Source: Syntrophomonas sp.
GTDB taxonomy: Bacteria > Bacillota > Syntrophomonadia > Syntrophomonadales > Syntrophomonadaceae
DNA: 37,985 bases
Direction of reading: 5' to 3'
NCBI RefSeq assembly: GCF_028707975.1
Contig: NZ_JAQVZX010000012.1
Span: 1-37,985, forward strand
Made by a program: the position numbers and the translations under genes. Below, one piece after another: positions 15,091 to 35,149 of the stretch. Position 1 is the stretch's first letter. Every line of letters begins with the position of its first letter. The notes beneath the pieces are model-generated. The model was not told where the DNA came from. It ran no database searches and worked only from the letters and a program-made list of their open reading frames with translations.

Positions 15091-15206
15091 CCCCGCTTCT
15101 TTAAACGGCCGGGTTCCCGTTAACAAAACGGGCGGCGGATTCTAATCCCCCCGCCTGGTTGCAGCGCTGTGTTAAAATTGCTTGGCAGTTTCTTTCCGAT
15201 ACTAAA
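15091..15206 (+). repeat. Structured intergenic repeat, copy 1
   Basis: Shares the order of blocks with 16295-16434 and 18890-18985: CCGCTTCTTTAAACG, then a GGCGG...CCCGCC arm pair around a short AT centre, TTGCAGCG-TGTGTT, the hairpin AAATTGC/GCAGTTT, and TTTCCGATACT. The bases just before it, GAAGTGAAATATG, also resemble the end of porC before copy 2. It ends nine bases before the -35 box of the T-box promoter. Confidence 0.7.
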
Positions 15207-15214
15207 AAGAAATG

Positions 15215-15243
15215 TTGACAGAAAAACCGCAGCTCAGTATAAT
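15215..15243 (+). promoter_or_regulatory. Consensus promoter of the T-box/por operon
   Basis: TTGACA (15215-15220), exactly 17 bp, TATAAT (15238-15243). Both hexamers match the consensus perfectly, so initiation should be strong and control left to the T-box. Confidence 0.9.
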
Positions 15244-15249
15244 AAATGC

Positions 15250-15540
15250 AATATTCAAAAATGACGATGACAGGGAATAGTAAGCTGATCCTCAGGTTAC
15301 AGAGAACCGCTGTTCGGTGTGATGCGGTCGAAGAGGCAGGTGGAACTCACCCTGGAGTTGCCGACCGAAATCATTTTAGAAAGTAGGCTCGGACGGAACT
15401 TCAACCGTTAAAATGAAGGGGATATCGGATCTTAAGATCCCGCATCCTGATGGAGTGAACGGCTTTAGCCGTTAATTTGAGTGGTACCGCGGAGTTTAAC
15501 CCTTCGTCTCAGAGTTCTGAGCGAAGGGTTTATTTTTTTT
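15250..15540 (+). ncRNA. T-box leader upstream of the por operon
   Basis: Stem I base: AAAATGA (15258-15264) pairs with TCATTTT (15371-15377), with a CGATGA kink-turn side and AGTA S-turn (15279-15282). CAGAGAACCGC and the GGTGTGATGCGG segment match the distal part of stem I. The T-box sequence TGGTACCGCGG is at 15482-15492. The terminator is AACCCTTCG (15498-15506)/CGAAGGGTT (15522-15530) plus a T run. TGGT calls for a tRNA with discriminator A73. Aligning on GAG...GAA places the specifier near CCG (15361-15363, Pro), but GAC or another frame cannot be excluded. Uncharged tRNA binding would favour readthrough into the operon. Confidence 0.93.
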
Positions 15541-15756
15541 ACCAGGGAGGTGCTTTCGATAGAAGACGCTACTGGCGACCGGCAACTATTTTTAGTTTTA
15601 AATAATGAAACAGCTGGGTGTGGCTGTGCGCCCCTTAACTATCCACCTGCTGCCCGATGGGCTCATGAAGCAGAATAAGGGAGGTATAACTGATAAAGGC
15701 ATAAGTACTATTTAGAGAAGAGCGTTTGGCACAGCATAGAAGAATGGAGGAGCGAT

Positions 15757-16314
15757 ATGAACAATATGTTAGAACTACGAATCAATGGCTTTGGCGGGCA
15801 GGGTTCCGTTACCCTGGCTCACTTGTTAGCGCAGGCTGCGCTGGAAAACGGTGAACAAGGGCAGGCCTTGCCTTTCTTTGGCGTGGAACGTCGCGGAGCG
15901 CCGGTGCGGGCAGCAGTGCGCATGTCCCCCGGCAGTATCCACGCGCACAGTCAATGCGAACTGCCGGATTATGTAGTAGTAATGAGCGAAAAGCTTACCA
16001 AAGCGGCGGTCAGTGAAGGCATAACTGAGAAGGGCAGCGTGATCATCAATGCTCCCTACGCCGAAGCCGTGGAGAAATACTGCACCTGGCAGGTGGACGC
16101 CGAGGCTATCGCCCGCGAAGCCGAATTATTTTCGGCCGATGGCCCCATTATCAATATCCCGCTGTTTGGCGCGGTGTGCCGGGTGCTAAACATTCCGCAA
16201 AATATTATGGAACAAACCATCCTAAATAAATGGCCGGGTAATGACGAAGCGCGTAATCTGGGCGCTGCTGGTAAGGCTTATAACGAGGTGAAAATATGTC
16301 CTCCGCTTCTTTAA
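15757..16314 (+). CDS. porC: 2-oxoacid:ferredoxin oxidoreductase gamma subunit
   Basis: 185 aa, ATG after GGAGGAG. N-terminal LRINGFGGQGSVTLAHLLAQAAL (residues 6-28) is the conserved nucleotide-loop-like motif of gamma subunits, followed by PFFGVERRGAPVRAAVRMS. Length matches stand-alone PorC/VorC chains. It opens a gamma-delta-alpha-beta set, the order used by Thermotoga-type pyruvate and 2-ketoisovalerate oxidoreductases, which turn a 2-oxoacid and CoA into acyl-CoA, CO2 and reduced ferredoxin. The last codons and stop (CPPLL-TAA) lie in the first block of repeat copy 2, so the C-terminus may be repeat-derived. Controlled by the T-box upstream. Pyruvate as substrate is an inference. Confidence 0.85.
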   Translation: MNNMLELRINGFGGQGSVTLAHLLAQAALENGEQGQALPFFGVERRGAPVRAAVRMSPGSIHAHSQCELPDYVVVMSEKLTKAAVSEGITEKGSVIINAPYAEAVEKYCTWQVDAEAIAREAELFSADGPIINIPLFGAVCRVLNIPQNIMEQTILNKWPGNDEARNLGAAGKAYNEVKICPPLL

Positions 16315-16434
16315 ACGATCGATTTAATAAACAAACAAAGCGGCGGGTTTAATCCACCCCACCTCGTTGCGGTGGTGTGTAGAAACTGCTGCGCAGTTAC
16401 TTCCGGAGCTTAAACAGCGTAACGAAGATTAGCC
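16295..16434 (+). repeat. Structured intergenic repeat, copy 2
   Basis: Between porC and porD. It shares CCGCTTCTTTAAACG with copy 1, then GCGGCGGGTTTAATCC...CCACC, GTTGCGGTGGTGTGT, the hairpin GAAACTGC/GCAGTTAC, and TTCCGGAGCTTAAA. The stop codon of porC (16312-16314) falls inside the first block. Its 160-bp porC-porD gap contrasts with the four-base porD-porA gap. Confidence 0.75.
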
Positions 16435-16478: not shown

Positions 16479-16736
16479 ATGAAATTATTAACGAAAGCCT
16501 ACCGGCCCATTTCCTGGCCGATGAAAGGATCCGGCGGTGACACCGGTTCCTGGCGAACGCATCGTCCGGTAGTTGATACTCAGATATGTAATAAATGCCA
16601 GATTTGCTGGGTATATTGTCCGGAAGCGGTCATAGACCGCCAAGAAATTACTATTGATTACCGCTACTGCAAGGGCTGCGGCGTATGCGCCGTAGAATGC
16701 CCCACCGGCGCAATCAGCATGGAAATGGAGGAGTAG
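16479..16736 (+). CDS. porD: 2-oxoacid:ferredoxin oxidoreductase delta subunit
   Basis: 85-aa ferredoxin-like subunit with two [4Fe-4S] motifs: CNKCQICWVYCPEAVI at about 37-52 and CKGCGVCAVECPTGAI at about 66-81. The N-terminal 35 residues (PISWPMKGSGGDTGSWRTHRPV) match the family's lead-in. It carries electrons from the beta-subunit cluster to external ferredoxin. GAAAGGAATGG precedes the ATG. Four bases separate it from the alpha gene, so the two are coupled. Confidence 0.92.
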   Translation: MKLLTKAYRPISWPMKGSGGDTGSWRTHRPVVDTQICNKCQICWVYCPEAVIDRQEITIDYRYCKGCGVCAVECPTGAISMEMEE

Positions 16737-16740
16737 CCGT

Positions 16741-17871
16741 ATGAAAACAGCACAAGTTATAATGGATACCGGTGCTCATGCCGCCGCGCTGGCCGTAAAA
16801 AGCGCCCGGGTGGATGTAGTACCCGGCTACCCTATTACCCCCCAGACCAGTATTATGGAAGCGCTGGCTGCCATGGTTGAAAATGGCGAACTGCACGCCC
16901 GTTTCATCCCGGTGGAAGGCGAACACAGCTCCATGGCCGCTGCCGTGGCCGCATCCGCTGTCGGTGCCCGCGTTTTTACAGCCACTTCAGCCAACGGCCT
17001 GCTGTATATGCACGAAGTTTTACATATGGCCTCCGGTGGACGTTTGCCAGTGGTAATGTGCAATGTTAACCGCGGTATTTTTGCCCCCTGGACCCTGTGG
17101 GCTGATCATCAGGACTCAATGGCTCAGCGTGATACCGGCTGGATCCAATATCACTGCTCCTCCAACCAGGAGGTGTTTAACACTATTTTGCAAGCCTTCC
17201 GCGTGGCCGAACAGATCAATATCCCGGTGATGGTCAACTTTGACGGCTTTGCTATCTCCCATTGTCTGATGCCCCTCACCCTGCCACCACAGGAGGATAT
17301 CGACCGTTTCCTGCCCCCGTATGAACCGGAATGGCGGCTGGATCCGGCTCATCCCTCTTCCTTCAGCAATGTGACCAATGCGCCCGAATACGCACCCTTC
17401 CGCCAGATGCTGTCCGATGATATCATGGCATCCATCCCGCTGGTAAAGCAGGCAGCGCAGGAATACAAGGATATCACCGGCATGTGGGATGGTGACACCA
17501 TCGACACCTATCGGCTGGAAGACGCCGAAGTAGTAGCCTTTGCCATCAACAGTATGGGAGCAGAATTAAGACTTTCCATCGATATCCTTCGCCAGCAGGG
17601 CATTAAAGCTGGCCTGCTCAGACCGCGCCTGTATCTGCCCTTCCCGGCCGAGGATATCATCACTGCACTGCCGCAAAACGCGCAGGTGATGGTACTGGAT
17701 CGCAATTATAACTTCGGCCACCCTGGCGGTATTTTGGCTTCAGAGCTGAAAAGCATACTCTTTGGTTGCCGCAACGATATCACGGTTAAAAACCGGGTAG
17801 TGGGCATTGGTGGCATCGACCTGACTCGCCAATTCATGGCCTCCGAGATTCGCGCCATGATGGATGAATAG
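16741..17871 (+). CDS. porA: 2-oxoacid:ferredoxin oxidoreductase alpha subunit
   Basis: 376 aa, ATG after GGAGGAG. N-terminal PGYPITPQTSIMEALA (residues 29-44) and FIPVEGEHSSMAAAVAASAVGAR (58-80) form the TPP pyrimidine domain. The following stretch with NRGIFAPWTLWADHQDSM and QRDTGWIQ (near 109-136) matches pyruvate-type alpha subunits closely. FDGFAISH and a C-terminal domain II (VMVLDRNYNFGHPGGI) complete the chain. It builds the active site together with PorB. Length is normal for a separate alpha chain. Confidence 0.9.
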   Translation: MKTAQVIMDTGAHAAALAVKSARVDVVPGYPITPQTSIMEALAAMVENGELHARFIPVEGEHSSMAAAVAASAVGARVFTATSANGLLYMHEVLHMASGGRLPVVMCNVNRGIFAPWTLWADHQDSMAQRDTGWIQYHCSSNQEVFNTILQAFRVAEQINIPVMVNFDGFAISHCLMPLTLPPQEDIDRFLPPYEPEWRLDPAHPSSFSNVTNAPEYAPFRQMLSDDIMASIPLVKQAAQEYKDITGMWDGDTIDTYRLEDAEVVAFAINSMGAELRLSIDILRQQGIKAGLLRPRLYLPFPAEDIITALPQNAQVMVLDRNYNFGHPGGILASELKSILFGCRNDITVKNRVVGIGGIDLTRQFMASEIRAMMDE

Positions 17872-17913: not shown

Positions 17914-18852
17914 ATGGCTACCAGTATTAAAAAATTACCGGATATTGAGCAGGTTTTAAGCGGCAACGGGGCCTGTGGCGGCTGCCCCGCCACCATGGGC
18001 TTGCGCATCGTAGGCAAGGCTCTGGGTTCAAACGCCATCATGCTGTTGACCCCTTCCTGTTCGGTAGCCAGCATGGGCATGACCCCCAGGCTGGGTTATA
18101 ATTGGCCCTGCATTAATATTACATTTGCGTCCGCTGGCTCTTCAGCCTCCGGTATTACCCACGCGCTGGAAGTAATGCAGGAAAAGGGCCGCCTGCAAGG
18201 CGAGCTGCCCACCGTATTCGCCTGGGTGGGCGATGGCGGCACCTATGACATTGGCTTCCAGGCCTTATCAGGCGCAGCCGAGCGCAACGATAATATAATT
18301 TTCTTTTGCTATAACAACGAAGCCTACAGCAACACCGGCGTGCAACGTAGCGGAGCCACCCCGCGTGGCAGCTTCACCACCACCACCCCTACCGGCAAGC
18401 GCCAGCCCAAGAAAAACATGGCCCTGCTGATGCTGGAGCATAATATTCCCTATGTGGCTACTGCCGCTGTGGCTTACCCCGGCGACCTGTACGATAAGGT
18501 GGTAAAAGCCAAAAACATCCCGGGCATGAAATACATCGAAATTCAGGCCCCCTGCTATTTAGGCTGGCAGTTCGATATGCCTGAAACCGTGCAGATGAGC
18601 CGTATGGCTGTGCGCAGCGGTGCCTGGCTGTTATGGGAAGCGGAAAATGGCAAGATCAGCTTTAATAACCCCAGCTCGCTTATCATCAGCGGTAAAAAAG
18701 ACGCTGCCCCGGTGGATGAATACTTAATGAAGCAGGGTCGCTTCAATCGCCTGCTTAAAGGTCCTGACGCCGAGAGCCGCATTGCCGAAATTCAAGGCGA
18801 CATCGATCGCGAGATTGCTTTTATACGGGAAAGAGCGAAGATTACGATTTAG
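17914..18852 (+). CDS. porB: 2-oxoacid:ferredoxin oxidoreductase beta subunit
   Basis: 312 aa, ATG preceded by GAAAGGAATGGATGAG. Carries the TPP site GDGGTYDIG near residue 108 with the later NNEAYSNTG, and Cys residues for one [4Fe-4S] cluster: GACGGCP at 24-30 and APCYLGW near 212. GATPRGSFTTTTPTGKRQPKKN matches pyruvate-type beta subunits. It ends the four-gene operon; repeat copy 3 starts about 40 bp later. With PorA, PorC and PorD it forms the complete cytoplasmic enzyme. Confidence 0.92.
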   Translation: MATSIKKLPDIEQVLSGNGACGGCPATMGLRIVGKALGSNAIMLLTPSCSVASMGMTPRLGYNWPCINITFASAGSSASGITHALEVMQEKGRLQGELPTVFAWVGDGGTYDIGFQALSGAAERNDNIIFFCYNNEAYSNTGVQRSGATPRGSFTTTTPTGKRQPKKNMALLMLEHNIPYVATAAVAYPGDLYDKVVKAKNIPGMKYIEIQAPCYLGWQFDMPETVQMSRMAVRSGAWLLWEAENGKISFNNPSSLIISGKKDAAPVDEYLMKQGRFNRLLKGPDAESRIAEIQGDIDREIAFIRERAKITI

Positions 18853-18889: not shown

Positions 18890-18985
18890 AAGGGGACAAA
18901 ACAGGCGGAGGATTCTTATCCCCCGCCTCGTTGCAGCGGTGTGTTGAAACTGCTTCGCAGTTTCTTCCGATGCTTAAAGATTGCC
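18890..18985 (+). repeat. Structured intergenic repeat, copy 3
   Basis: Lies just after porB. It has ACAAAACAGGCGGAGGAT...ATCCCCCGCCT forming an 11-bp arm pair with one mismatch, GTTGCAGCGGTGTGTTG, the perfect hairpin GAAACTGC-TTC-GCAGTTTC, and TTCCGATGCTTAAAG. It lacks the CCGCTTCTTTAAACG block of copies 1 and 2. It may act as the operon's 3' structure, but no T run follows. Confidence 0.75.
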
Positions 18986-19062
18986 CCTTGCCCGTTTCTA
19001 TTTACCCTCTAAGCCAACCTAACTGATACTCCTCAAAAATTGAAGTGGCGCAGGAGTTGTAC

Positions 19063-19590
19063 ATGAAGCCGGAATCGTTTGATGCCCAGGCAACTATTGA
19101 GTACATTGTTGATCTTTTCATAAATGGAGCTAGGGAGGGATATGATATGGAAAATAAAAAAATAATTTCCCAGGAGCATTTTAAAAAATGTTTGCTTAAC
19201 ATATTTTTGCGAAGCGGCTTATCCGAATTCCCCAGTGATTATACTAATTTGCATGTTCTACTCAAAAGCGCAATTCTAACTTTAGATAAAACAGCCATCT
19301 TCAGCGAGAAAGAGATTAACCATAATCTTGATTATTGGATAAATAATATAAGCAAACTTACCCCAATGAAAGACATTGATCATGTTACATTGCGGCGTAT
19401 GTTGGTAGATTCCGGGTATTTAACCCGGAATAGGGATGGTTCTTGCTACCGTGTATCTTTATCAGGAACTGGACAGCCGGTATTTGATGATGCGATTGAG
19501 CAAGTTGATGTTATTGCCGTAATTAAATCCGGGCGTGAAGAAATCACCAGAAGAAAAAGAGAATATATGGAGAAATTAAATTCGCAATAG
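19063..19590 (+). CDS. DUF2087 domain protein
   Basis: 175 residues from ATG 19063, chosen because CAGGAG lies seven bases upstream; a GTG at 19045 is the longer option. The C-terminal half matches the DUF2087 pattern: MKDIDHVTLRRMLVDSGYLTRNRDGSCYRVS, a small winged-helix-like unit found in transcription factors. The N-terminal half is helical (SFDAQATIEYIVDLFINGAREGYDM). A regulatory role is likely but untested. It lies between the por operon and the surface-protein regulator. Confidence 0.7.
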   Translation: MKPESFDAQATIEYIVDLFINGAREGYDMENKKIISQEHFKKCLLNIFLRSGLSEFPSDYTNLHVLLKSAILTLDKTAIFSEKEINHNLDYWINNISKLTPMKDIDHVTLRRMLVDSGYLTRNRDGSCYRVSLSGTGQPVFDDAIEQVDVIAVIKSGREEITRRKREYMEKLNSQ

Positions 19591-19607
19591 AAGACCCATG
19601 TCACCCG

Positions 19608-19636
19608 TTGCAGCATGTCGCTCAAACGACTATAAT
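19608..19636 (+). promoter_or_regulatory. Regulator promoter with dyad in the spacer
   Basis: TTGCAG (19608-19613), 17 bp, TATAAT (19631-19636). The spacer ends in GTCG-CTCAAA-CGAC (19617-19630), a short dyad that recurs in the same place in the promoter at 20899-20927. Lies 32 bp before the ATG of the regulator. Confidence 0.65.
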
Positions 19637-19667
19637 AAAGCTGTCATTTCACAAGGACGGTTTCAGG

Positions 19668-20873
19668 ATGGAATACATATCAACAACAGAGGCTTCTGAA
19701 AGATGGGGCGTTTCTCTCAGGCAGGTGCAGCGGCTTTTAGCCGATAACCGGATACCCCGCGCTAAAAAATACGGGAGGTCGTGGATGATTCCGGATGATG
19801 CGGAAAAACCCGTTGATCCGCGCAAAGAGAAAAAGCCGCCGGGACAATCCCTGTCCTCCGAGCTTGCTTATATAATTGAGGCCACTTCCATACCCATGCC
19901 AACCCATAATCCCGATGCGATTTTGAAAATTGTGAAGGAGGAAAAACTGCGGCTTCAATACGAGGGTGAGCTTGCCTATCTGCGGGGCGATTTCGCACGC
20001 GCAATGCGCTGCTATGATAAAACCGAAGGGGACGAAGCGGCAAGGCTGCGTGCGTCCCTGGTAGCGGTCGTGGCGGCTATCAGCCTAGGAGACTACCCTG
20101 CGTATCTAAAGATTGAAGCTTATCTCAAAAGCTTTGTGGGCGCAGGCCGCGGCAGGGATAGTTGCGCTATCGCGGAGCTTGCGCTGGCCAGCGTTGCCGT
20201 CAGCGTGATTGTCCCGAATATGGTTCCCAAGTGGCTTTCGGAGGGGGATTTCAGCGCCTTCCCAGTACAGGTGAAGCCGCCGTATATACTCTATTTGCGC
20301 GCACGATATTTCATGTGTATCGGAAAATATGAAATCGCGCTGGCCGTGGCACAGACCGCATTGACCTTTTACGCATCGGAGCAGGGGATCACATTGCCAG
20401 AGATTTATCTGCGGGTCGTTTGCGCTCTTTCCTGTCATTGTCTCGGCCGCGAGAATGAAGCCAGGCGCTGGCTGCTGGAAGCCATGCGCATTGCTCTGCC
20501 CCACGGTTTTATTACGCCCTTTGCGGAGCCTATTTCCGAGTTCGGCGGCATTGTGGAGCAATGTTTAGAGGAGGCATTTCCCGACTACTGCGACGCTGTC
20601 ATCGGGCAGTGGAAGCGCACGGTTAAAAACTGGATCACCTTTCACAACTATTTCACCAAGGATAACATCACAGTGATTCTTTCCCTGCGGGAATACCATC
20701 TGGCACAGTTAGTAGCCCGACGCGTTCCTTACGTAAAAGTCGCAAAGCAGTTTAACATTTCCGTTGGCAGGCTCAAGAATATCATGCTGGAAATTTACGA
20801 AAAGCTGTTCATATCCAACCGGGACGAGCTTGCGCAATATGTTTTAATGACGAATAAAGGAGCCGGTTCATGA
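19668..20873 (+). CDS. Transcription factor: excisionase-like HTH, helical repeats, LuxR-like HTH
   Basis: 401 aa from ATG 19668 (MEYISTTEASERWGVS); the longer frame from 19608 would begin inside the promoter. Residues 1-48 are an excisionase/MerR-like HTH (WGVSLRQVQRLLADNRIPRAKKYGRSWMIP). The middle (about 95-330) is helical with TPR-like repeats (LRLQYEGELAYLRGDFARAMRCYDKTEGD, YFMCIGKYEIALAVAQTAL). The end (about 345-395) is LuxR-like: LREYHLAQLVARRVPYVKVAKQF, SVGRLKNIMLEIYEKL, NRDELAQYVL. Two DNA-binding ends around a sensor-like solenoid is an unusual build. It likely regulates itself and the operon at 21154 through the shared dyad. Confidence 0.82.
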   Translation: MEYISTTEASERWGVSLRQVQRLLADNRIPRAKKYGRSWMIPDDAEKPVDPRKEKKPPGQSLSSELAYIIEATSIPMPTHNPDAILKIVKEEKLRLQYEGELAYLRGDFARAMRCYDKTEGDEAARLRASLVAVVAAISLGDYPAYLKIEAYLKSFVGAGRGRDSCAIAELALASVAVSVIVPNMVPKWLSEGDFSAFPVQVKPPYILYLRARYFMCIGKYEIALAVAQTALTFYASEQGITLPEIYLRVVCALSCHCLGRENEARRWLLEAMRIALPHGFITPFAEPISEFGGIVEQCLEEAFPDYCDAVIGQWKRTVKNWITFHNYFTKDNITVILSLREYHLAQLVARRVPYVKVAKQFNISVGRLKNIMLEIYEKLFISNRDELAQYVLMTNKGAGS

Positions 20874-21493: not shown

Positions 21494-24400
21494 ATGAAAA
21501 AGGCGCAAAAACGAATTATAAGCTTGCTGCTCTGCGTTATGTTTGCAATAACCATGCTACCGTTGGATGTATTGGCAGACAACAGTTCAGCTGCACCCGC
21601 ACAGCTTTCCGTTGTGGCGGCAGGTGACACTGCCGGCAATCCGGCCGGACAGTCGCCTACCAATAACGCGGACGGCGGCACAATTGCGTTTAGAAATCCG
21701 TTTGGGGATGTGGAGCCCGGCGACTGGTTTTTTGATGATGTAGGTTTTGTTTACAACAGTGGCCTGATGAGCGGCACCGGCACGGAATCACCGCTGTTCA
21801 GTCCTTATATGCCCATGTCCCGGGCTATGCTGGTCACAGTTCTGTACCATCTTGCGCGAAGCCCGGTTACCTCCGGTCTGCCCAACGTTTTTACTGATGT
21901 GCCGGAAGAATCGTGGTACAGCAGCGCGGTGGCGTGGGCAGCGGCGAACGGTATAACCAGCGGCGTGGGCGGTAACCGTTTCGCGCCGGACGATAATGTC
22001 ACACGCGAACAGTCGGCGACAATTCTTCTGAGATATGCGCGGCTGATCGGAAAGGGACCTGCCGGCAAAATAACAGGCGGCTATAACTTTGCCGACAAGG
22101 ATAAAATCTCGGATTGGGCTTTGGAAGGCGCCATGTGGTTCAGCATGATCGGCGTCATCACAGGCAAGCCGGGGGATAATGGTATGCTCTTTGACCCGCA
22201 AGGAAACGCCATACGCGCGGAGCTCGCGGTGATGCTACATAGGTTTTCGGATAATGTGGTCAACAACCCTGAACAACCTGCCGTGCCTGCCCCTGTCATG
22301 CCTGCCATGCCTACCACCGACTCTTCCTCCGGTTCCGACTCGGGCCCAGGCTCGGGTGATTCTCTGACAGTATCTTTTGAAACCAACGGCGGTACCGCGA
22401 TGGCTCCGGTTTCGGTGCCCCGGGGAGGCAAGTTTCGGGATGTGTTAATCCCCCTCAAGGACGACTGCACCTTTACGGGCTGGTATAGGGACAGCAATCT
22501 GACCGAACCCTTCTATTCCGATGCCCCTATCACAGAGAGTATAACCCTTTACGCGTCTTATGCCGACAGGGACTATAACTATAAGGAATACATCGATCCG
22601 GTCAAGTTTTTACCGGACTGCCCCGCTGAAATCAGTTTTGATATTTTGTCTCCGAAAACCATCACCGACAGCAATCTGGATGATTACATAACAATTATGG
22701 ATAAAGTTAACGGCGATGAAATCCCTGATGTTACCGTTACGAGTAAGGGCGGTAACGTTTATGTCATTTCGCCCAAAGCGCCCTACACTTACACTCCGGG
22801 CGATACCTACGAGCTTTCCCTGATAGACGTGGATATCAGCTTCAGTAATGAAAAAGAAGAAATCCGCACCATTGCCTTCAGCATTAAAAAGCCCGAAACC
22901 TATAATGTTCAATTCAAGGATGGCATCGTATATCTTCTCTGGAATCAAGTAAATGTAATCGACAGCGGTGTGTACAGCCTGCCGCAGGCTTTGGCCGGCG
23001 ACAAGAAAATAGTGGTTGGAACCACCATATGTTTAACGGACGAGCTTGATCCAAACGGGCAGGGAATTCTCAACGAAAACTCGAAGATCCGCAATGTGCT
23101 GAGCATTGTAGACACGGATTCAAAAGACCCGCAGCGCGTCATGCTGTTTACCGAAGCCAGCAACGTGGACGATGTCTATAAGCAGCTTGACGTTTATTTG
23201 CAGGAAAATATAGACCCGGATAAACTGGCCAAATCCATTAATGTGGAAAAGCTTGAGCAGGATCTGAAAACCAGCGAGGGCACGCTGCAATTTACCAAGC
23301 TTCTGGCGGTTGCGCTCAATGAAAGCCAGACGATGGCGGCTTTGCTTTCGTCGGCAGATACAACCCAGTCAGCATCTACATTGGCCTCCGGAGCTTCCTC
23401 GTCATTTGCCCAGCCCAGCGAAAACGATGATAAATTCTCTGTCGCCGTCAAAGCCCTGGTCTCGGGATTAACCGTCTCCGCATCCATCGGCACGGCCAAA
23501 AACACCAACTTCCCCGGCGCGGTCAACAACAATTGGGTCGTGCTGACCATAAAATTCAATTACAATGCGACGATCAAGAAAGTCCAGGTGAAGTCCGACT
23601 TTACCTTCAAGGAATACATTACTCTTTCGTCGGGAAAGGAAACCGGCCTGATCTATTTTGACGCCTGGATCGACACTTACTCGCAGACGGATGTGGAATT
23701 CAACGTCCTTGTCAAGACAGTGGACGTAGACGAGGAGTTTTTAGATATCACCGCTGAAATTAATAAGCTTATCTCCGGTTTCACAAAGGACAATTCCGGC
23801 GTCCCCGAAATCATCAGGGAGGTACTGGGGTCAAAGGGCGATTATATCGACCTTGTGGAAGTAAATCTTTTCGACCAGGCGCAGGATATCAAAATGCCGA
23901 TTCCCATCCTGCAGGTGAAGGAGAAGGGGGACTTCGTTATCCGGCTGAATCTCGCGGTGGGCCTGTCGGCCCAAAGCACCCTCATGTCCGCCAACCGTAT
24001 AGGAATCAGGGGCAGTATAAGTAATCCTCTGGAAACGTATAAGTACGCGCTCGAAGGCGATGGCAGGCAAAGCCTCGACTTATACTGTGTGGGCTATCTG
24101 GGAGTCAAGGCCGGGGTAAGGCTTACCGTAAGCGTCAATTTCTATGGCCTAGAATCTCTGGGCAGAGTCGGCTTTAGGGGAGAAGTGGGCGCCTATTTGG
24201 ATCTGTACGGCTTTTTGCAGCTTCATTTACTCAAAACCGGTGCCGCCCCCGACATCAACATGAACGGCGGAATCTACATGGAAATCGGCATCTATGTAGA
24301 ACTGAAACTCTTTGCCGAGTCGAAGTTATTCAAGGTAAAGGCGGAGCTTTCCGTTCTGGATATGAAATTTCCTATTTATACCCTGGGCAACCGGTATGTG

Positions 24401-27400
24401 CTGTACAGATTCAAGAACGCCGGCAATACCGTGGTGTTCAACCAAAACGACTACTATATCAGCAACAGCGGTCTGCTGGACTGTGAGATGCTTGACCTTA
24501 CCACCGGAGAACTGGTTAAGGGCGATTATTCCAAGCTTAGTAAATTCAAGTTCAAAGTATCCAACCCATGGATGATCGATTGGTCTGATGAGAATCATAT
24601 CAGTGTCCAGCCACAATATTTCGGCCGAACGTATAACGATGTCCGTGTGGAGAAGGGTACCCAGCGCCTGGACGCTACGGTGCAGGTTTATTACGGTGGC
24701 GACAACCTCTGCTTCAGCAGCCGGGAAAAGGGCTATACCTATAATGAGATCAAGCTCGTATGGGTGGACCCCAGCATTGACCCCAAAATGGTCAACCTAA
24801 ACCCCGTGAAGGCAACCTATGTGATCAATCTAGATGGAGAAAAGACCGTGCTCACAAAATCCGTGCTTGCGGGTTATGTCCCCGGTTCTATCGACCTGTC
24901 TTCCTGGCTCCAGGACGCAAAAATAACCGGATATGAAAACGACTGGGACGTTGCCATTTGGAAGGATACCACTTATACGGTAAATATGACGAAGCTGCAG
25001 GTGCTGGTATCCTATATGTACATGCGTGACGGACAGTGGCACTATGAGATATATGCCGCTGAATGCGGCGACACGGTGCCTACCACCTCAGACTATCAGT
25101 CGCCTGGTCCGGAACGCACTTTTAAACACTGGGAGAGAAGGGTTTGGCTTTATAATTATAGTGATGATGGGAAAATTCCGGGGCTGAATGCTAAGGTGCT
25201 GACGCTTGATTTATTCGATCATTTGCACAAATATTGGAAACATAGGAGTGTATTCCATACCGGATACGACAAAACGCAGGCGGTCTATACATTTACCGGC
25301 ACACTGGATGAGTGCCGCGAAAGGTTCAAAGAGAATCAAAAAACTATGTATGTCCTGTTCAACAGTGTAGCGGAGTATGAAATAAATCGAGAATACATCA
25401 CGTTCCACTACCCCAGGATGCAATACACAGCTTATGGGCAAAATTTCGATATCTGGTATGATAGTGAAACATTCTTTTTTGATTACGGCACGATGCCTTT
25501 GCCCCCGCAGCAAAAGAGCTATCCCGGCTGCAAGATTAATGGATGGAGCAACAGTAGCGGTGCCGCAGCGAAATACGCTTATGACCAGCTGCCCCCGGCC
25601 ACATGTAATACTAATTATTTTCTTGCTGTTGAATTCACACAACATCAGATAATATTCAGAACAGACATGGGAACCTTTACTGACGGCAGCAGCGCCGCCG
25701 ACTCCGGTATGATCCCCTATCTGGATTATCTGGAATATGTGGAGAACTTCCAGAAAGCCAACAATGTCCTCACGATCAAGCCGGTGCTTAAGGACGGCGT
25801 ATTCTACAAATTCCATCACTGGGATGTAGATTACTCACAGGATAAGCAGCATATCCAAACCTGGAACGCGGTATGGGTCGTCTCTTCCGTTCCGGAGTAT
25901 TCTGCCGCCTTCAACGCTGGAGAAGGAGCCACTTTCCCCGATGGAAGCACAAGCCTTTCCCTCCGGCTTACCTATGGTTCCAGCGTGAATTTATCCTCGT
26001 ACGCCCCTGTTAAGGCTGCGGATAACCAGTACACCTATACGCTGACAGGCTGGAGGGATCAGGACAGAAATACCTACGGCTTGACCGATGATGTCGTTGT
26101 CCAAAAGGATATGACCTGTACGGCGGTCTACACGCCGGCTGCAAGAGAGTATACCGTAACGGTCAGCGCCGGAAACGGGAAGTTCTCCGATGGTACGAAT
26201 ATAAAAACCGTTACTGGCAAATACGAAGAGAATACAAATATTTTGGTAAGTATAGGTGCCCTCACCCCCCCCGAGGGTAATCCCGATTACCATTATGAGT
26301 TCGATGGCTGGTCGGAAGCTCTCCCGGAAAAATTCACACAGGATATGACCATTACCGCGAAGTACAAACAGGTTTATGACGATTACACCATCACCTTTAA
26401 CGCAGGCAGCGGTTCGTTTGAGGGCGGCGCAAGAACCGTTACCCAGACCTATCGTTACGGCGATGTAATCGTCCCCCCTGCTGATCCTCCGGTCAAAGCA
26501 GAGAATGATTATATTAAATATGAGTTCACCGCCTGGAGTCCGGCCTTGGAAACTGTTACCGGTAACTGCACATATACGGCAAACTACCGTTCCGTTCCCA
26601 AGGATACGCCGCTGCCGGTGAGCGGAATTAATGTAACAGACGGAGATGTGACCGAGGATATCAGTGTGAGCAGTCTCACCGGCTATACCTACAAAATGGT
26701 CGAAACGCTTGACGGAAACGTTGTTCCCGTTCTTACGATTACAGGGGATGGGCTGACCTTCAGCGGAACAGGCAGCGGCGTATACGTTGACATTGACGAC
26801 ACGGCAAGCTCCATTACCTTCAAAGATCTGAACATCTCAGTCAGCAAGTATTTTGACAGCATAAATGTTAAGGAAAGCAGCAGCGGCAGCCATTTGACCG
26901 TCAATATTAAGGGAAAATGCGCTTTCAAAATTGAATCAGAAGAAGCTTGGAATGTCATGCGCATTGAGCGTCCCACCACATTTGTCGGTACAAATAAAAC
27001 CGAAGACTCGCTGCATATCGGCACTTCAGGGGGTAAGGTGATTTACACCTCGAACAGCCTGACATTTGATACCCTGGATTTAAAAATTGACGCAGCAGGA
27101 GGCGAAGGCATCGATATATCCGTGCTGTTCGCAGATGTGGGTAAAGAGGAGCAGTCTGTGTGCCGCTTTGTGTATTCCGACATTGCCATTACCTCAGAAG
27201 GCGGCGGGTTCATGTTTGGGTCGCTTGGCATCCAAAACAGCCTTTTGGGTATGAATTGTGACGGCCCGGCAGGATTTCTTTTCGGATTTACGGTCGATGC
27301 TTCTGATGTGACCATTACAGCCGGGAAAGGGCTTTGGATTAACGGAGATGCCGTATTCTCCGGCGATAAGATTATTAATAAGCTTGAGCTGACGGCGACA

Positions 27401-27580
27401 GACGGGGGCGCGAGCATAGGTGCCACAAAGAACATAAGCGTACCCGGTGAATATGATTTGGGTGGCGCGTCAATCCAACGTTTGACAGATATTTTAACAA
27501 AGGAAGAATATTATACCTTTGCCAATGAAAAAGACGGCGTCTGGATTCCGGCAGCAAATGTAAAGATAAACAAACCTTGA
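21494..27580 (+). CDS. Giant SLH-anchored surface protein with InlB-type repeats
   Basis: 2028 aa, ATG preceded by GGAGGAAAG. Signal peptide 1-29 (cleavage near VLADN). Three S-layer-homology domains at about 70-125, 132-190 and 197-255 (each with F.DV/AD and a final F.P...MTR-like block such as FAPDDNVTREQSA). Pro/Ser linker 258-288, then a Listeria-Bacteroides repeat 291-357 (TGWYRDSNLTEPFYSD). A long beta-rich body follows; three further InlB-type repeats lie near 1468-1702 (FTAWSPALETV, FDGWSEALPEK, LTGWRDQ). The last 320 residues resemble a repetitive beta-helix. No LPXTG or terminal membrane anchor, so SLH binding to wall polymer should hold it at the cell surface. Adhesion or matrix role inferred. 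Confidence 0.9.
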   Translation: MKKAQKRIISLLLCVMFAITMLPLDVLADNSSAAPAQLSVVAAGDTAGNPAGQSPTNNADGGTIAFRNPFGDVEPGDWFFDDVGFVYNSGLMSGTGTESPLFSPYMPMSRAMLVTVLYHLARSPVTSGLPNVFTDVPEESWYSSAVAWAAANGITSGVGGNRFAPDDNVTREQSATILLRYARLIGKGPAGKITGGYNFADKDKISDWALEGAMWFSMIGVITGKPGDNGMLFDPQGNAIRAELAVMLHRFSDNVVNNPEQPAVPAPVMPAMPTTDSSSGSDSGPGSGDSLTVSFETNGGTAMAPVSVPRGGKFRDVLIPLKDDCTFTGWYRDSNLTEPFYSDAPITESITLYASYADRDYNYKEYIDPVKFLPDCPAEISFDILSPKTITDSNLDDYITIMDKVNGDEIPDVTVTSKGGNVYVISPKAPYTYTPGDTYELSLIDVDISFSNEKEEIRTIAFSIKKPETYNVQFKDGIVYLLWNQVNVIDSGVYSLPQALAGDKKIVVGTTICLTDELDPNGQGILNENSKIRNVLSIVDTDSKDPQRVMLFTEASNVDDVYKQLDVYLQENIDPDKLAKSINVEKLEQDLKTSEGTLQFTKLLAVALNESQTMAALLSSADTTQSASTLASGASSSFAQPSENDDKFSVAVKALVSGLTVSASIGTAKNTNFPGAVNNNWVVLTIKFNYNATIKKVQVKSDFTFKEYITLSSGKETGLIYFDAWIDTYSQTDVEFNVLVKTVDVDEEFLDITAEINKLISGFTKDNSGVPEIIREVLGSKGDYIDLVEVNLFDQAQDIKMPIPILQVKEKGDFVIRLNLAVGLSAQSTLMSANRIGIRGSISNPLETYKYALEGDGRQSLDLYCVGYLGVKAGVRLTVSVNFYGLESLGRVGFRGEVGAYLDLYGFLQLHLLKTGAAPDINMNGGIYMEIGIYVELKLFAESKLFKVKAELSVLDMKFPIYTLGNRYVLYRFKNAGNTVVFNQNDYYISNSGLLDCEMLDLTTGELVKGDYSKLSKFKFKVSNPWMIDWSDENHISVQPQYFGRTYNDVRVEKGTQRLDATVQVYYGGDNLCFSSREKGYTYNEIKLVWVDPSIDPKMVNLNPVKATYVINLDGEKTVLTKSVLAGYVPGSIDLSSWLQDAKITGYENDWDVAIWKDTTYTVNMTKLQVLVSYMYMRDGQWHYEIYAAECGDTVPTTSDYQSPGPERTFKHWERRVWLYNYSDDGKIPGLNAKVLTLDLFDHLHKYWKHRSVFHTGYDKTQAVYTFTGTLDECRERFKENQKTMYVLFNSVAEYEINREYITFHYPRMQYTAYGQNFDIWYDSETFFFDYGTMPLPPQQKSYPGCKINGWSNSSGAAAKYAYDQLPPATCNTNYFLAVEFTQHQIIFRTDMGTFTDGSSAADSGMIPYLDYLEYVENFQKANNVLTIKPVLKDGVFYKFHHWDVDYSQDKQHIQTWNAVWVVSSVPEYSAAFNAGEGATFPDGSTSLSLRLTYGSSVNLSSYAPVKAADNQYTYTLTGWRDQDRNTYGLTDDVVVQKDMTCTAVYTPAAREYTVTVSAGNGKFSDGTNIKTVTGKYEENTNILVSIGALTPPEGNPDYHYEFDGWSEALPEKFTQDMTITAKYKQVYDDYTITFNAGSGSFEGGARTVTQTYRYGDVIVPPADPPVKAENDYIKYEFTAWSPALETVTGNCTYTANYRSVPKDTPLPVSGINVTDGDVTEDISVSSLTGYTYKMVETLDGNVVPVLTITGDGLTFSGTGSGVYVDIDDTASSITFKDLNISVSKYFDSINVKESSSGSHLTVNIKGKCAFKIESEEAWNVMRIERPTTFVGTNKTEDSLHIGTSGGKVIYTSNSLTFDTLDLKIDAAGGEGIDISVLFADVGKEEQSVCRFVYSDIAITSEGGGFMFGSLGIQNSLLGMNCDGPAGFLFGFTVDASDVTITAGKGLWINGDAVFSGDKIINKLELTATDGGASIGATKNISVPGEYDLGGASIQRLTDILTKEEYYTFANEKDGVWIPAANVKINKP

Positions 27581-31540: not shown

Positions 31541-33109
31541 TTATTCATTTACATCCACCGTCACGCCGGACTTGAATTCCACAATAAATTTATCCTCATA
31601 GATGCTGACTTTTTCGATCAGCCGGCGGATAAGCTGCTCGTCGTATTCAGCGAGGGCGGTGGATTGCTTTTTTAGGAATGTGCTCATATCAGCCATGCGC
31701 TTTTTGAGTTCATCACGGTTAGCACTTTCAAGCTGCATCTTTTGTTTCTGGTCACGCAGTCGGTGTATCTCATCACCGACTTTATCATAATCGGCATTGG
31801 AGGTAGCCAGCTTCAGCAGCTCCGTTTGTAGTTCCTCCAACCGCTTATCGATATCTGCCAAGCCCTTGTCGTTTTCTCGATTTATCACGGTGGCAATATT
31901 ATCGCGTAGAGTAGTGAGGAAAGAGTCTTTGTCGCAAAGTGCCTGATTGATAGCGGTGACAAGCACCTGCTCGATGGTGCTTTCCAGTACTGTGCGGGCA
32001 TCGCAGAACAAGCCTGTATTTTCTAAGCGACTTACGCACCGCCAGACGATGGATTTCTTACCACGGTTGTTCCAGTGCACCCTGCGGAACACTTCACCGC
32101 AGTTGCCGCAGAAGACTATCTGCGCAAAGCAGTGATTGCTGCTGAAGGTTCTGGTCTTGCCATTCGGACTTGTGTGAACAATACGGCGGCGGACAAGTTC
32201 CTCCTGCACCTGCATGAATACTTCACGCGGAATAATGGCTTCGTGGCTGTTTTCCACGTAATACTGAGGAACGATACCGTTGTTCTTGATCCGCTTTTTT
32301 GTTAGGAAGTCAACCGTATATGTTTTCTGCAAAAGCGCGTCGCCGATGTACTTTTCGTTTCGCAGGATTTGATTTATGTTGCTGGTGTGCCAGCGTTCCC
32401 TGCCCGCACCGTTTATGATACCGTCCGCTTCCAAACCGCGAGCGATTTTCAGCATACTGGCACCCTCAAGATATTCTCGGTAAATGCGCTTGATGATTTC
32501 AGCTTCCTCGGGCACAACCACAAGACGCTTATTCTCATCCTTGGTGTAACCGAGGAACCGAGCGCAGTTGACTTGAATTTCACCTTGCTGGTAACGATAC
32601 TGCAGACCCAGCTTTACGTTTTGGCTCAATGACTGGCTTTCCTGTTGGGCAAGGGATGCCATAATTGTGAGCAGGACTTCGCCCTTGGAATCCATGGTGT
32701 TTATATTTTCCTTCTCGAAATAAACGGGAATGTTTTTCTCCTTGAGCTGACGGATATATTTCAAACAGTCCAGTGTATTTCGCGCTAACCGGCTGATGGA
32801 TTTTGTAATGATCATGTCGATATTACCGGCCATACACTCGTCAATCATGCGGTTAAATTCTTCGCGTTTCTTAGTATTGGTACCGGAGATACCGTCGTCC
32901 GCAAAAATCCCCGCCAGTACCCAGTCGGGGTGACCTTGTATGTAGGTGGTATAGTGTTCAATCTGCGTGTCATAACTGGTAGCCTGCTCATCGCTGTCTG
33001 TGGAAACACGGCAGTATGCCGCAACCCGGAGTTTGGGCTTTTCTTCGTCTGCACCTTTTCGGGCATGCTTCCTTGCAGGAATCACGGTGACGCTTTTACT
33101 TACTGCCAT
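31541..33109 (-). CDS. Large serine recombinase (second)
   Basis: 522 aa, ATG after GGAGGTGAAC. Resolvase N-domain with [11 protein letters not shown], catalytic Ser36, and [15 protein letters not shown]; recombinase domain around 190-290 ([26 protein letters not shown]); zinc ribbon [10 protein letters not shown]; coiled coil about 400-480. It is the last gene of the module and overlaps the small recombinase-domain gene by 14 bp. Such enzymes integrate and excise phage DNA at short attP/attB sites without high-energy cofactors. Confidence 0.92.
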
Positions 33110-33527
33110 TCTTGTTCACCTCCGTTTCGATTAAACTGTAGGCGTATTCCGCCTGTGCAAAGGGGCCGTCGAATTCTTCTCTTCCTTCTATTACATGAAA
33201 AGCAGTAGGATAGACGACCGTTGTTTCTTCATTTGGTTCATAAATACGACCGAGTTTCTCCGCCCGCCTGACACGTTCCGCTTCGGCGGATGTAAACGTG
33301 TTCGGGTCGATTATGGCGGGGTAATAGTCGTCGCCAAGATAACGCGTATTACGAAGCATTCTGCCGATTCCCGCGTGGAAGGCAGTGATACCCGCCTTCT
33401 TTGCAGCAGTTGCCAGTGAATCGCCGGACAAATAGGAATCAAATAAGGTTTTTATCTGCTTGGCAGCTTCTATATCAATTACGGCTTTTCCGTTTTCAAT
33501 GCGGTAGCCAAGTGGTGTTTGACTCAC
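33096..33527 (-). CDS. Recombinase-domain protein without a catalytic domain
   Basis: 143 aa, GTG start just after the stop of the upstream large recombinase. It begins [35 protein letters not shown], the recombinase (PF07508) helical domain, followed by [22 protein letters not shown]. The resolvase domain with its Ser is absent and there is no zinc ribbon. Between two full recombinases it could be a DNA-binding accessory or directionality-type subunit (inference) rather than debris, since its ends overlap both neighbours neatly. Confidence 0.85.
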
Positions 33528-33532
33528 TTATC

Positions 33533-35089
33533 TCACCAGCTTTCTTTGAGTGTAATGCCGCATTTAAACTCGAATCCAATCTCCGACCTGGAATACACAA
33601 CAACCCGCTCTACAAAGCGTTTGAAAATGTCCCCGTCAAAGCCCTTCAGCATCGATGCTTTGGTAGCATATTGCAGCAAAGCACTGACCTCACTTAGGTT
33701 CTGAAAGTCATTATTCAAAAATCGAGTTATGGATTCTTTTTGACGGCGTAGGCGTTCTGCCTCTTGCAACAGCGCATTGTTGCTCTTATTGTAAACGGCA
33801 GGCTCAAGATATTTTTTGGTCATCAGCCCAACCAGTACATTTCGCTGTTCCACATTTTCTTCGAGTTTCTTGTCAATCGCATGAATGCTTTCCAGAGTCT
33901 CATCTGAATTCATCCCACGCAGACTGATGAGTAACGGCTTGAGTACAAATTCGTGCCCAAATATAAGCTTGTTCATTAGGGTGACAAATGCGTATTCAAA
34001 ATCGGACTCCGGCACATATTTCATAGAGCATTTTTTGATATCTACGATATGAGTGGAGCAGCACCAAGCAATTCGATGTTTTCCGCTTGAATGGATTCTA
34101 CGCTTAAACGTCCCGCCGCACTGACCACAGATGATTTTTCCTGAAAAGGGGTATCGGTTCTGATATTTTTTATGTTGCCTTTCTAAGCCTTTTTCCTTTC
34201 CACGCTGTTCGATAATATCCTGAGCAGCTTCATAATCTTCATGACTGATAATTGCCTCATGATGGTTTTTGATCAGATACCGATCCTTCTCACCCCTGTT
34301 GTTATGGCGATTGAAATGGACATCGGTATAGGTTTTTTGAAAAATTGCATCTCCTGTATATTTTTCGTTCCCCACCATTCCACGGATTGTTGTTGCTGTC
34401 CAGCGGCCACCTTTTTTAGTGGGTACTTTTCGGTTGTTCAACTCGTCGGCGATTTTATGAGTGCTTTTACCGGATAGAATTGAAGCGAAAATATAGCGAA
34501 CAATTTCTGCTTGTTGCTCGTTAACGACCATCTCACCATCTATGTTATCGTAGCCATATGGTGGATAGGATATCTTGTACGTGCCATTTTGAAAGCGACG
34601 CTGAATTGACCACTTGTTGTTTTCAGCGATGGAGACCGATTCACTTTCGGCCAGTCCACTTAGGATTGACAGCATGAGTTCGCTTTCCATTGACCCTGTG
34701 TTGATATTCTCCTTCTCAAAATAAATGAAAACATTAAGGGCAAGCAGCTTTCTGACCAGCTCCAGACAGTCGGTAGTGTTACGAGCAAATCTGCTGATAG
34801 ACTTCGTTACAATGAGGTCTATTTTTCTGTCTTCACAGTCGGTAATCATTCGAAGCAACTCAGGTCGTTTTTCTTTTTTCGTGCCGGTGATGCCTTCGTC
34901 ATAATAAAGACCTGCAAACGCCCATTCAGGGTTTGCATTGATGTAGGTTTTGTAGTGTTTTATTTGCGTATCCAGACTGACGAGTTGCTCATCACTGTCG
35001 GTAGACACACGGCAATAAGCTGCAACTCTGAGCTTGGACTGTTCAGCTATATCGACTGTATTTTGAGCTATTTTTGTTACCTTTTTCAA
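33533..35089 (-). CDS. Large serine recombinase (first)
   Basis: I place the start at a TTG at 35089, preceded by AAGGAGGTGAG; the longer frame from 35134 has no RBS. About 518 aa with [19 protein letters not shown] (Ser29), TKSISRFARNTTDCLE, recombinase domain near 160-260 (YPPYGYDNIDGEMVVNEQQAEIVRYIF), zinc ribbon CGQCGGTFKRR and a coiled coil before the C-terminus. It shares its architecture with the 31541-33109 gene but differs throughout, so the two are old paralogues and not a recent copy. Confidence 0.92.
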   Translation of the reverse strand: MKKVTKIAQNTVDIAEQSKLRVAAYCRVSTDSDEQLVSLDTQIKHYKTYINANPEWAFAGLYYDEGITGTKKEKRPELLRMITDCEDRKIDLIVTKSISRFARNTTDCLELVRKLLALNVFIYFEKENINTGSMESELMLSILSGLAESESVSIAENNKWSIQRRFQNGTYKISYPPYGYDNIDGEMVVNEQQAEIVRYIFASILSGKSTHKIADELNNRKVPTKKGGRWTATTIRGMVGNEKYTGDAIFQKTYTDVHFNRHNNRGEKDRYLIKNHHEAIISHEDYEAAQDIIEQRGKEKGLERQHKKYQNRYPFSGKIICGQCGGTFKRRIHSSGKHRIAWCCSTHIVDIKKCSMKYVPESDFEYAFVTLMNKLIFGHEFVLKPLLISLRGMNSDETLESIHAIDKKLEENVEQRNVLVGLMTKKYLEPAVYNKSNNALLQEAERLRRQKESITRFLNNDFQNLSEVSALLQYATKASMLKGFDGDIFKRFVERVVVYSRSEIGFEFKCGITLKESW

Positions 35090-35149
35090 TTTCTCACCTC
35101 CTTGGTCAGTGTCACATGTTACCGTCAAAACCAAGTTATATCAACGGTT

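Follow-up and report, generated by a model that had tools for sequence, protein, structure and literature searches.

A T-box riboswitch with a leucine specifier, and probable control of a 2-oxoacid:ferredoxin oxidoreductase operon by it, in Syntrophomonas

We consider it likely that a T-box riboswitch for tRNA-Leu(GAG) controls, by transcription antitermination, a porCDAB operon of Syntrophomonas whose enzyme, a 2-oxoacid:ferredoxin oxidoreductase (OFOR), may carboxylate branched-chain acyl-CoAs. The switch and the operon lie in the window analysed here, a stretch of 37,985 nucleotides from the contig NZ_JAQVZX010000012.1. The organism was placed in the Syntrophomonas wolfei group because its PorA is 98% identical to that of S. 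wolfei subsp. methylbutyratica. T-boxes, leucine T-boxes included, are a known kind of RNA. No published T-box on an OFOR and no account of por regulation in S. wolfei was found in the open literature searched (the 2008 comparative T-box survey and the T-box databases lie outside that search), and the case is apparently one of a known RNA on a target not previously reported.

The leader was identified by cmscan as a match to the Rfam family RF00230 at 15258–15514 on the forward strand, with a score of 117.3 bits (E 1.6e-25; gathering score 93), spanning all 219 model positions, which bears out the complete T-box proposed in an earlier note on this DNA. The predicted fold was better than those of 200 out of 200 shuffled sequences (z −3.35). 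Upstream lies the perfect consensus promoter that the same note had described, a sigma-70-type TTGACA-17-TATAAT at 15215–15243 (12/12 consensus matches), which is also present 5' of the T-box in the relatives displayed. Stem I carries a specifier loop with the AGTA motif on its 5' side (15279–15282, placed by sequence and Rfam alignment and invariant in 19 copies of the leader). The antiterminator (15478–15511 in the Rfam alignment), all nine pairs of which are invariant in the 19 copies, contains a UGGU bulge for the tRNA 3' end at 15482–15485, and is opposed by an intrinsic terminator with its U-run at 15498–15540, placed by sequence and consensus fold; the segment CGUCUCA is common to both structures. 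AGUA, UGGUACCGCGG and the terminator are thus all present, as the note had said. Across the 19 copies, the helices of stems I and III have 95–99% of their cells paired, and four pairs have changed on both sides; 98.5% of cells are paired, versus 34–51% when slid.

A rival possibility is that por is transcribed mostly from another promoter, 3' of the terminator, which would leave the T-box of little weight. In its favour, the terminator and porC are separated by 216 nt and a repeat element lies within the operon; a promoter of non-consensus type may exist at 15541–15756. Transcription of por from this interval had been named in the note as an observation that would count against the switch; a scan of the forward strand there found no sigma-70-like site, and promoter, T-box and terminator are kept together in the relatives. 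We regard dominant transcription from such a site as very improbable.

The specifier triplet is CUC (CTC in the DNA, 15346–15348, forward strand), which the covariance-model alignment places as the three bases immediately 5' of A-CCCUG; AACUC is invariant in the 19 aligned Syntrophomonadaceae leaders of the operon. The register could be checked because the other T-boxes of the same genome read the expected codons in it: UUC before pheS, GGC before glyQ, UGC before cysE-cysS, UCC before a serine-type aminotransferase gene, and CUC before both leuS and ilvE-ilvD. The genome also encodes a tRNA-Leu(GAG) ending in ACACCA, so the anticodon fits CUC and the discriminator base (A73) fits UGGU. With a leucine codon, a cognate tRNA and a discriminator matching the UGGN bulge, the T-box is almost certainly specific for leucine, as judged from sequence. 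The earlier note had read the specifier as CCG (proline) and had suggested an RF00230 alignment to settle it; that alignment corrects the reading to CUC. A switch sensing proline is contradicted by the model register, by the invariant AACUC and by the agreement with the other leucine T-boxes, and we give it a negligible chance. The surprise that the note had expressed is thereby removed, since leucine, unlike proline, makes metabolic sense here. The same triplet is used in the Bacillus ilv-leu T-box (cited in PMC2494555), and a leuA T-box with tRNA-Leu GAG is known from Geobacter (PMC2700814). The present leader has in common with these leucine T-boxes, and with that of leuS, the RF00230 architecture, the CUC triplet, the UGGU bulge and the choice between terminator and antiterminator, but its target is a ferredoxin-dependent oxoacid oxidoreductase rather than a synthetase, a transporter or a gene of the isopropylmalate pathway.

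Starting 216 nt past the leader, on the same strand and in the order given in the note, are porC (15757–16314; gamma subunit, TIGR02175 at 131.5 bits with a cut-off of 81.1, and PF01558), porD (16479–16736; delta subunit with 2[4Fe-4S], TIGR02179 at 101 bits, cut-off 60), porA (16741–17871; alpha subunit, PF01855 and PF17147, with the subfamily motif described below) and porB (17914–18852; TPP-binding beta subunit, PF02775). PF01855, PF17147, PF01558 and PF02775 all score over their cut-offs, and the gamma/delta/alpha/beta set of the OFOR family is complete. The note had called porCDAB the only downstream operon; no forward-strand intrinsic terminator was found after porB and ahead of the following genes, and transcription may therefore continue into the DUF2087 and HTH genes (19045–20873). 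Copies of a repeat of ~115 bp lie at 15095–15212, about 16300–16430 and about 18895–19000; one is directly 5' of the T-box promoter and one seems to separate porC from porD. BLAST with the first copy as query gave at least 40 copies genome-wide. Farther along, the window encodes a 2028-residue, probably cell-surface protein that carries S-layer homology domains and Listeria-Bacteroides repeats (21494–27580, forward strand) and two adjacent large serine recombinases (31541–35134, reverse strand).

The substrate of OFORs is notoriously hard to assign from sequence. Among the NCBIfam equivalogs, PorA scored 368 bits with PorA_Arch and 335 with VOR (cut-offs 550 and 646), and PorB scored 341.8 bits with VOR-beta and 314.7 with pyruvate PorB (cut-off 405), so that the alpha subunit leans to pyruvate and the beta subunit to VOR, and both fall short of the thresholds for pyruvate synthase and for 2-ketoisovalerate ferredoxin oxidoreductase. 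The enzyme resembles the archaeal four-subunit VOR/POR in its porCDAB layout, its TPP and Fe-S domains, the YPITP motif and the carboxylate-binding Arg; it differs in being below every equivalog cut-off, bacterial and under T-box control. It also differs in the loop after this substrate-binding Arg. The window PorA reads NRGIFAPWTL where solved PORs have NRAVSAPINI; all subfamily members have NR[GA][IV]F[AP]PW, as opposed to NR[AS][LV]S[AG]PIN in solved PORs, the archaeal VOR/POR loop likewise being [AS][LV]S[AG]PIN. The reference active-site position is Leu121 of DaPFOR (PMC5020499), and its counterpart in PorA, counted by hand, is a Trp. Since this Trp does not simply make a larger pocket, we drew no substrate from the PorA loop.

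The upstream regions of por were compared in the 40 close orthologous operons for which sufficient sequence 5' of the genes was available, the window counted; PorA identity to the close relatives aligned was 85–98%. Nineteen of the 40 have a T-box, always with the AACUC found here, 17 have a TGGTCNGACCA palindrome instead, four have neither and none has both (Fisher 7e-8, treating the loci as independent and ignoring kinship). The proposal that a tRNA switch links amino-acid supply to 2-oxoacid metabolism is supported, with leucine in place of the proline first read, and roughly half of the close orthologues retain the switch. No T-box reached the Rfam gathering score in relatives at 56–64% identity. 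The palindrome sits near a TATAAT-like box (L083 at 6602, L084 at 6836, L093 at 6915, and 14 further loci). In 539 kb of sequence from these loci it was found 16 times, where composition would predict ~0.5. Ten of the 17 palindrome loci have a GntR-family gene (LldR/PdhR-like) 3' of porB, as does none of the 19 T-box loci, and TGGTCTGACCA is a candidate target of the GntR protein of L093. A single origin of the T-box was not rejected (AU p 0.208; 36 labelled orthologues), and the distribution of the two elements takes 6–7 changes on quick trees. The exchange of T-box and GntR on otherwise near-identical operons would be a clear example from nature of one regulator taking the place of another.

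T-boxes of this layout turn on with uncharged tRNA (PMC7778990). Uncharged tRNA-Leu would pair with the CUC specifier and, by its NCCA end, with UGGU, stabilising the antiterminator and allowing RNA polymerase to reach porCDAB; charged tRNA-Leu would not stabilise it, and transcription would stop at 15498–15540. The operon would thus be expressed at leucine shortage. A switch of this sign implies that the enzyme is made in the synthetic direction, and on this analysis leucine very probably controls porCDAB biosynthetically. The enzyme is predicted to use CO2 and reduced ferredoxin to carboxylate an acyl-CoA, giving a branched-chain 2-oxoacid. The most likely reaction would be isovaleryl-CoA to 2-oxoisocaproate, which IlvE, itself under a CUC T-box, could convert to leucine; a near alternative is isobutyryl-CoA to 2-oxoisovalerate. 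In rumen bacteria, anabolic OFORs make amino-acid skeletons from acyl-CoAs. The present enzyme would use the same chemistry, from acyl-CoA, CO2 and reduced ferredoxin to 2-oxoacid, as we infer here from regulation and gene neighbourhood. Four anabolic OFORs have been described in Methanobacterium (Tersteegen 1997, as cited in PMC7238569). The route would be dispensable for leucine, since S. wolfei has a standard ilv-leu gene set (ilvE-D-B-N-C-leuA-leuC-cimA); the ilvE-D-B-N-C-leuA-C-cimA region stands under a CUC T-box.

Gene neighbours also point to synthesis. In distant relatives (48–64% PorA identity), porCDAB often follows a ligase gene: in L113, L115, L122, L123 and L207 it is directly preceded by genes for a fatty acid CoA ligase of the AMP-forming kind and for a TIM-barrel protein; the pair precedes porC-porA in L204 and is on the por contig in L206. 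In one case, L115, ilvD and ilvH stand before the ligase, the TIM-barrel gene and porCDAB. A CoA-transferase gene adjoins por in several T-box loci; in the window, por has neither a CoA-transferase nor a ligase gene beside it.

A second porCDAB (POR#2, the operon of the window being POR#1) is present in the same genome and in S. wolfei, with a PorA 36% identical to the first. It stands under its own T-box, with an isoleucine specifier (AUC) invariant in the copies seen (L011 1501–1728, reverse strand; L148; L074 8000–8340; L077 6700–6900) and an odd antiterminator motif, UGGUAUAGCG or UGGUAUAACG in place of UGGUACCGCG. Both por operons are in tandem in L074, L077 and L080, with a CoA-transferase gene between them. 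The tRNA-reading switches on the two paralogues, one for leucine and one for isoleucine, would provide independent evidence of what the enzymes are for. By our own tally, POR#1 occurs in 31 genomes, of which 26 carry in addition an enzyme of the POR#2 type or a one-chain PFOR; no genome combines these two, as though enzymes other than POR#1 took care of pyruvate synthesis.

The main rival reading is that the operon encodes a pyruvate synthase (acetyl-CoA + CO2) and that leucyl-tRNA charging gauges the pyruvate supply. A fatty-acid oxidiser builds from acetyl-CoA only, and branched-chain amino acids would be a large pyruvate sink; S. wolfei has been proposed to form pyruvate from acetyl-CoA and CO2 (PMC4324140). 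Consistent with this, PorA scores best with PorA_Arch, no one-chain PFOR was found in the genome of the window or in S. wolfei, and in S. zehnderi (L082), where a search at E 1e-20 gave neither POR#2 nor PFOR, POR#1 seems to be the sole enzyme of its kind. PdhR/LldR-like regulators of the GntR type in sister loci would also suit pyruvate or lactate sensing. However, POR#2 is much nearer to pyruvate synthases (481 bits, versus 335 with VOR), most POR#1 genomes also have POR#2 or PFOR, the loop beside the conserved substrate Arg differs invariantly from that of all PORs, and a fatty-acid-type CoA ligase is paired with the enzyme in distant relatives. We therefore hold pyruvate synthesis to be possible but doubtful.

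Alternatively, the enzyme might oxidise the 2-oxoacids of amino-acid breakdown, like archaeal VOR in peptide fermentation, with a T-box that is merely responsive to leucine. OFORs are reversible and the beta subunit is VOR-like, but a T-box that is on with uncharged leucyl-tRNA has the wrong sign for leucine breakdown, and the AMP-forming partner ligases favour acid activation; we find this improbable. Carboxylation of branched-chain acyl-CoAs is preferred over pyruvate synthesis as the main reaction because of the sign of the T-box, the ligase and ilv partners and the PorA loop motif, and from regulation and gene neighbourhood we put its chances at about even. More tentatively, and with somewhat less confidence than an even chance, the NR[GA][IV]F[AP]PW enzymes may form a distinct OFOR subfamily with which syntrophic fatty-acid oxidisers make leucine from isovalerate by reductive carboxylation, switched by uncharged tRNA-Leu, with a paralogue for isoleucine and a GntR-type repressor site replacing the switch in sister lineages. 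The two paralogous switches would predict that ferredoxin-dependent carboxylation supplies branched-chain amino acids in Syntrophomonas, which lives in methanogenic digesters.

Other T-boxes of the genome and the order had features of their own. In the leuS leader (CUC), a whole tRNA-Ala(GGC) gene forms the loop of the linker hairpin that lies between stem III and the antiterminator (L008 1501–1788, reverse strand; L143; L209–L238). A tRNA-Ala gene is just 5' of leuS in 24 of the 30 leuS loci of the order, several of the other six being cut short. The eight leuS leaders displayed have the same order of parts, and five with the tRNA inside score as full T-boxes (106–125 bits). The tRNA-Ala would come from each leuS transcript start, whether leuS was read or not; no published report of a tRNA-Ala inside a leuS T-box was found. 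Some 100–200 nt downstream of the T-box (UUC) that precedes aroF-pheA type genes lies another antiterminator-terminator unit (L006/L014, L144). Finally, a weak T-box (L013/L146; 37 bits in the genome of the window) precedes a gene for an ABC-type substrate-binding protein, and its specifier region includes the triplet UGG, as would suit tryptophan and a transporter of the TrpX kind.
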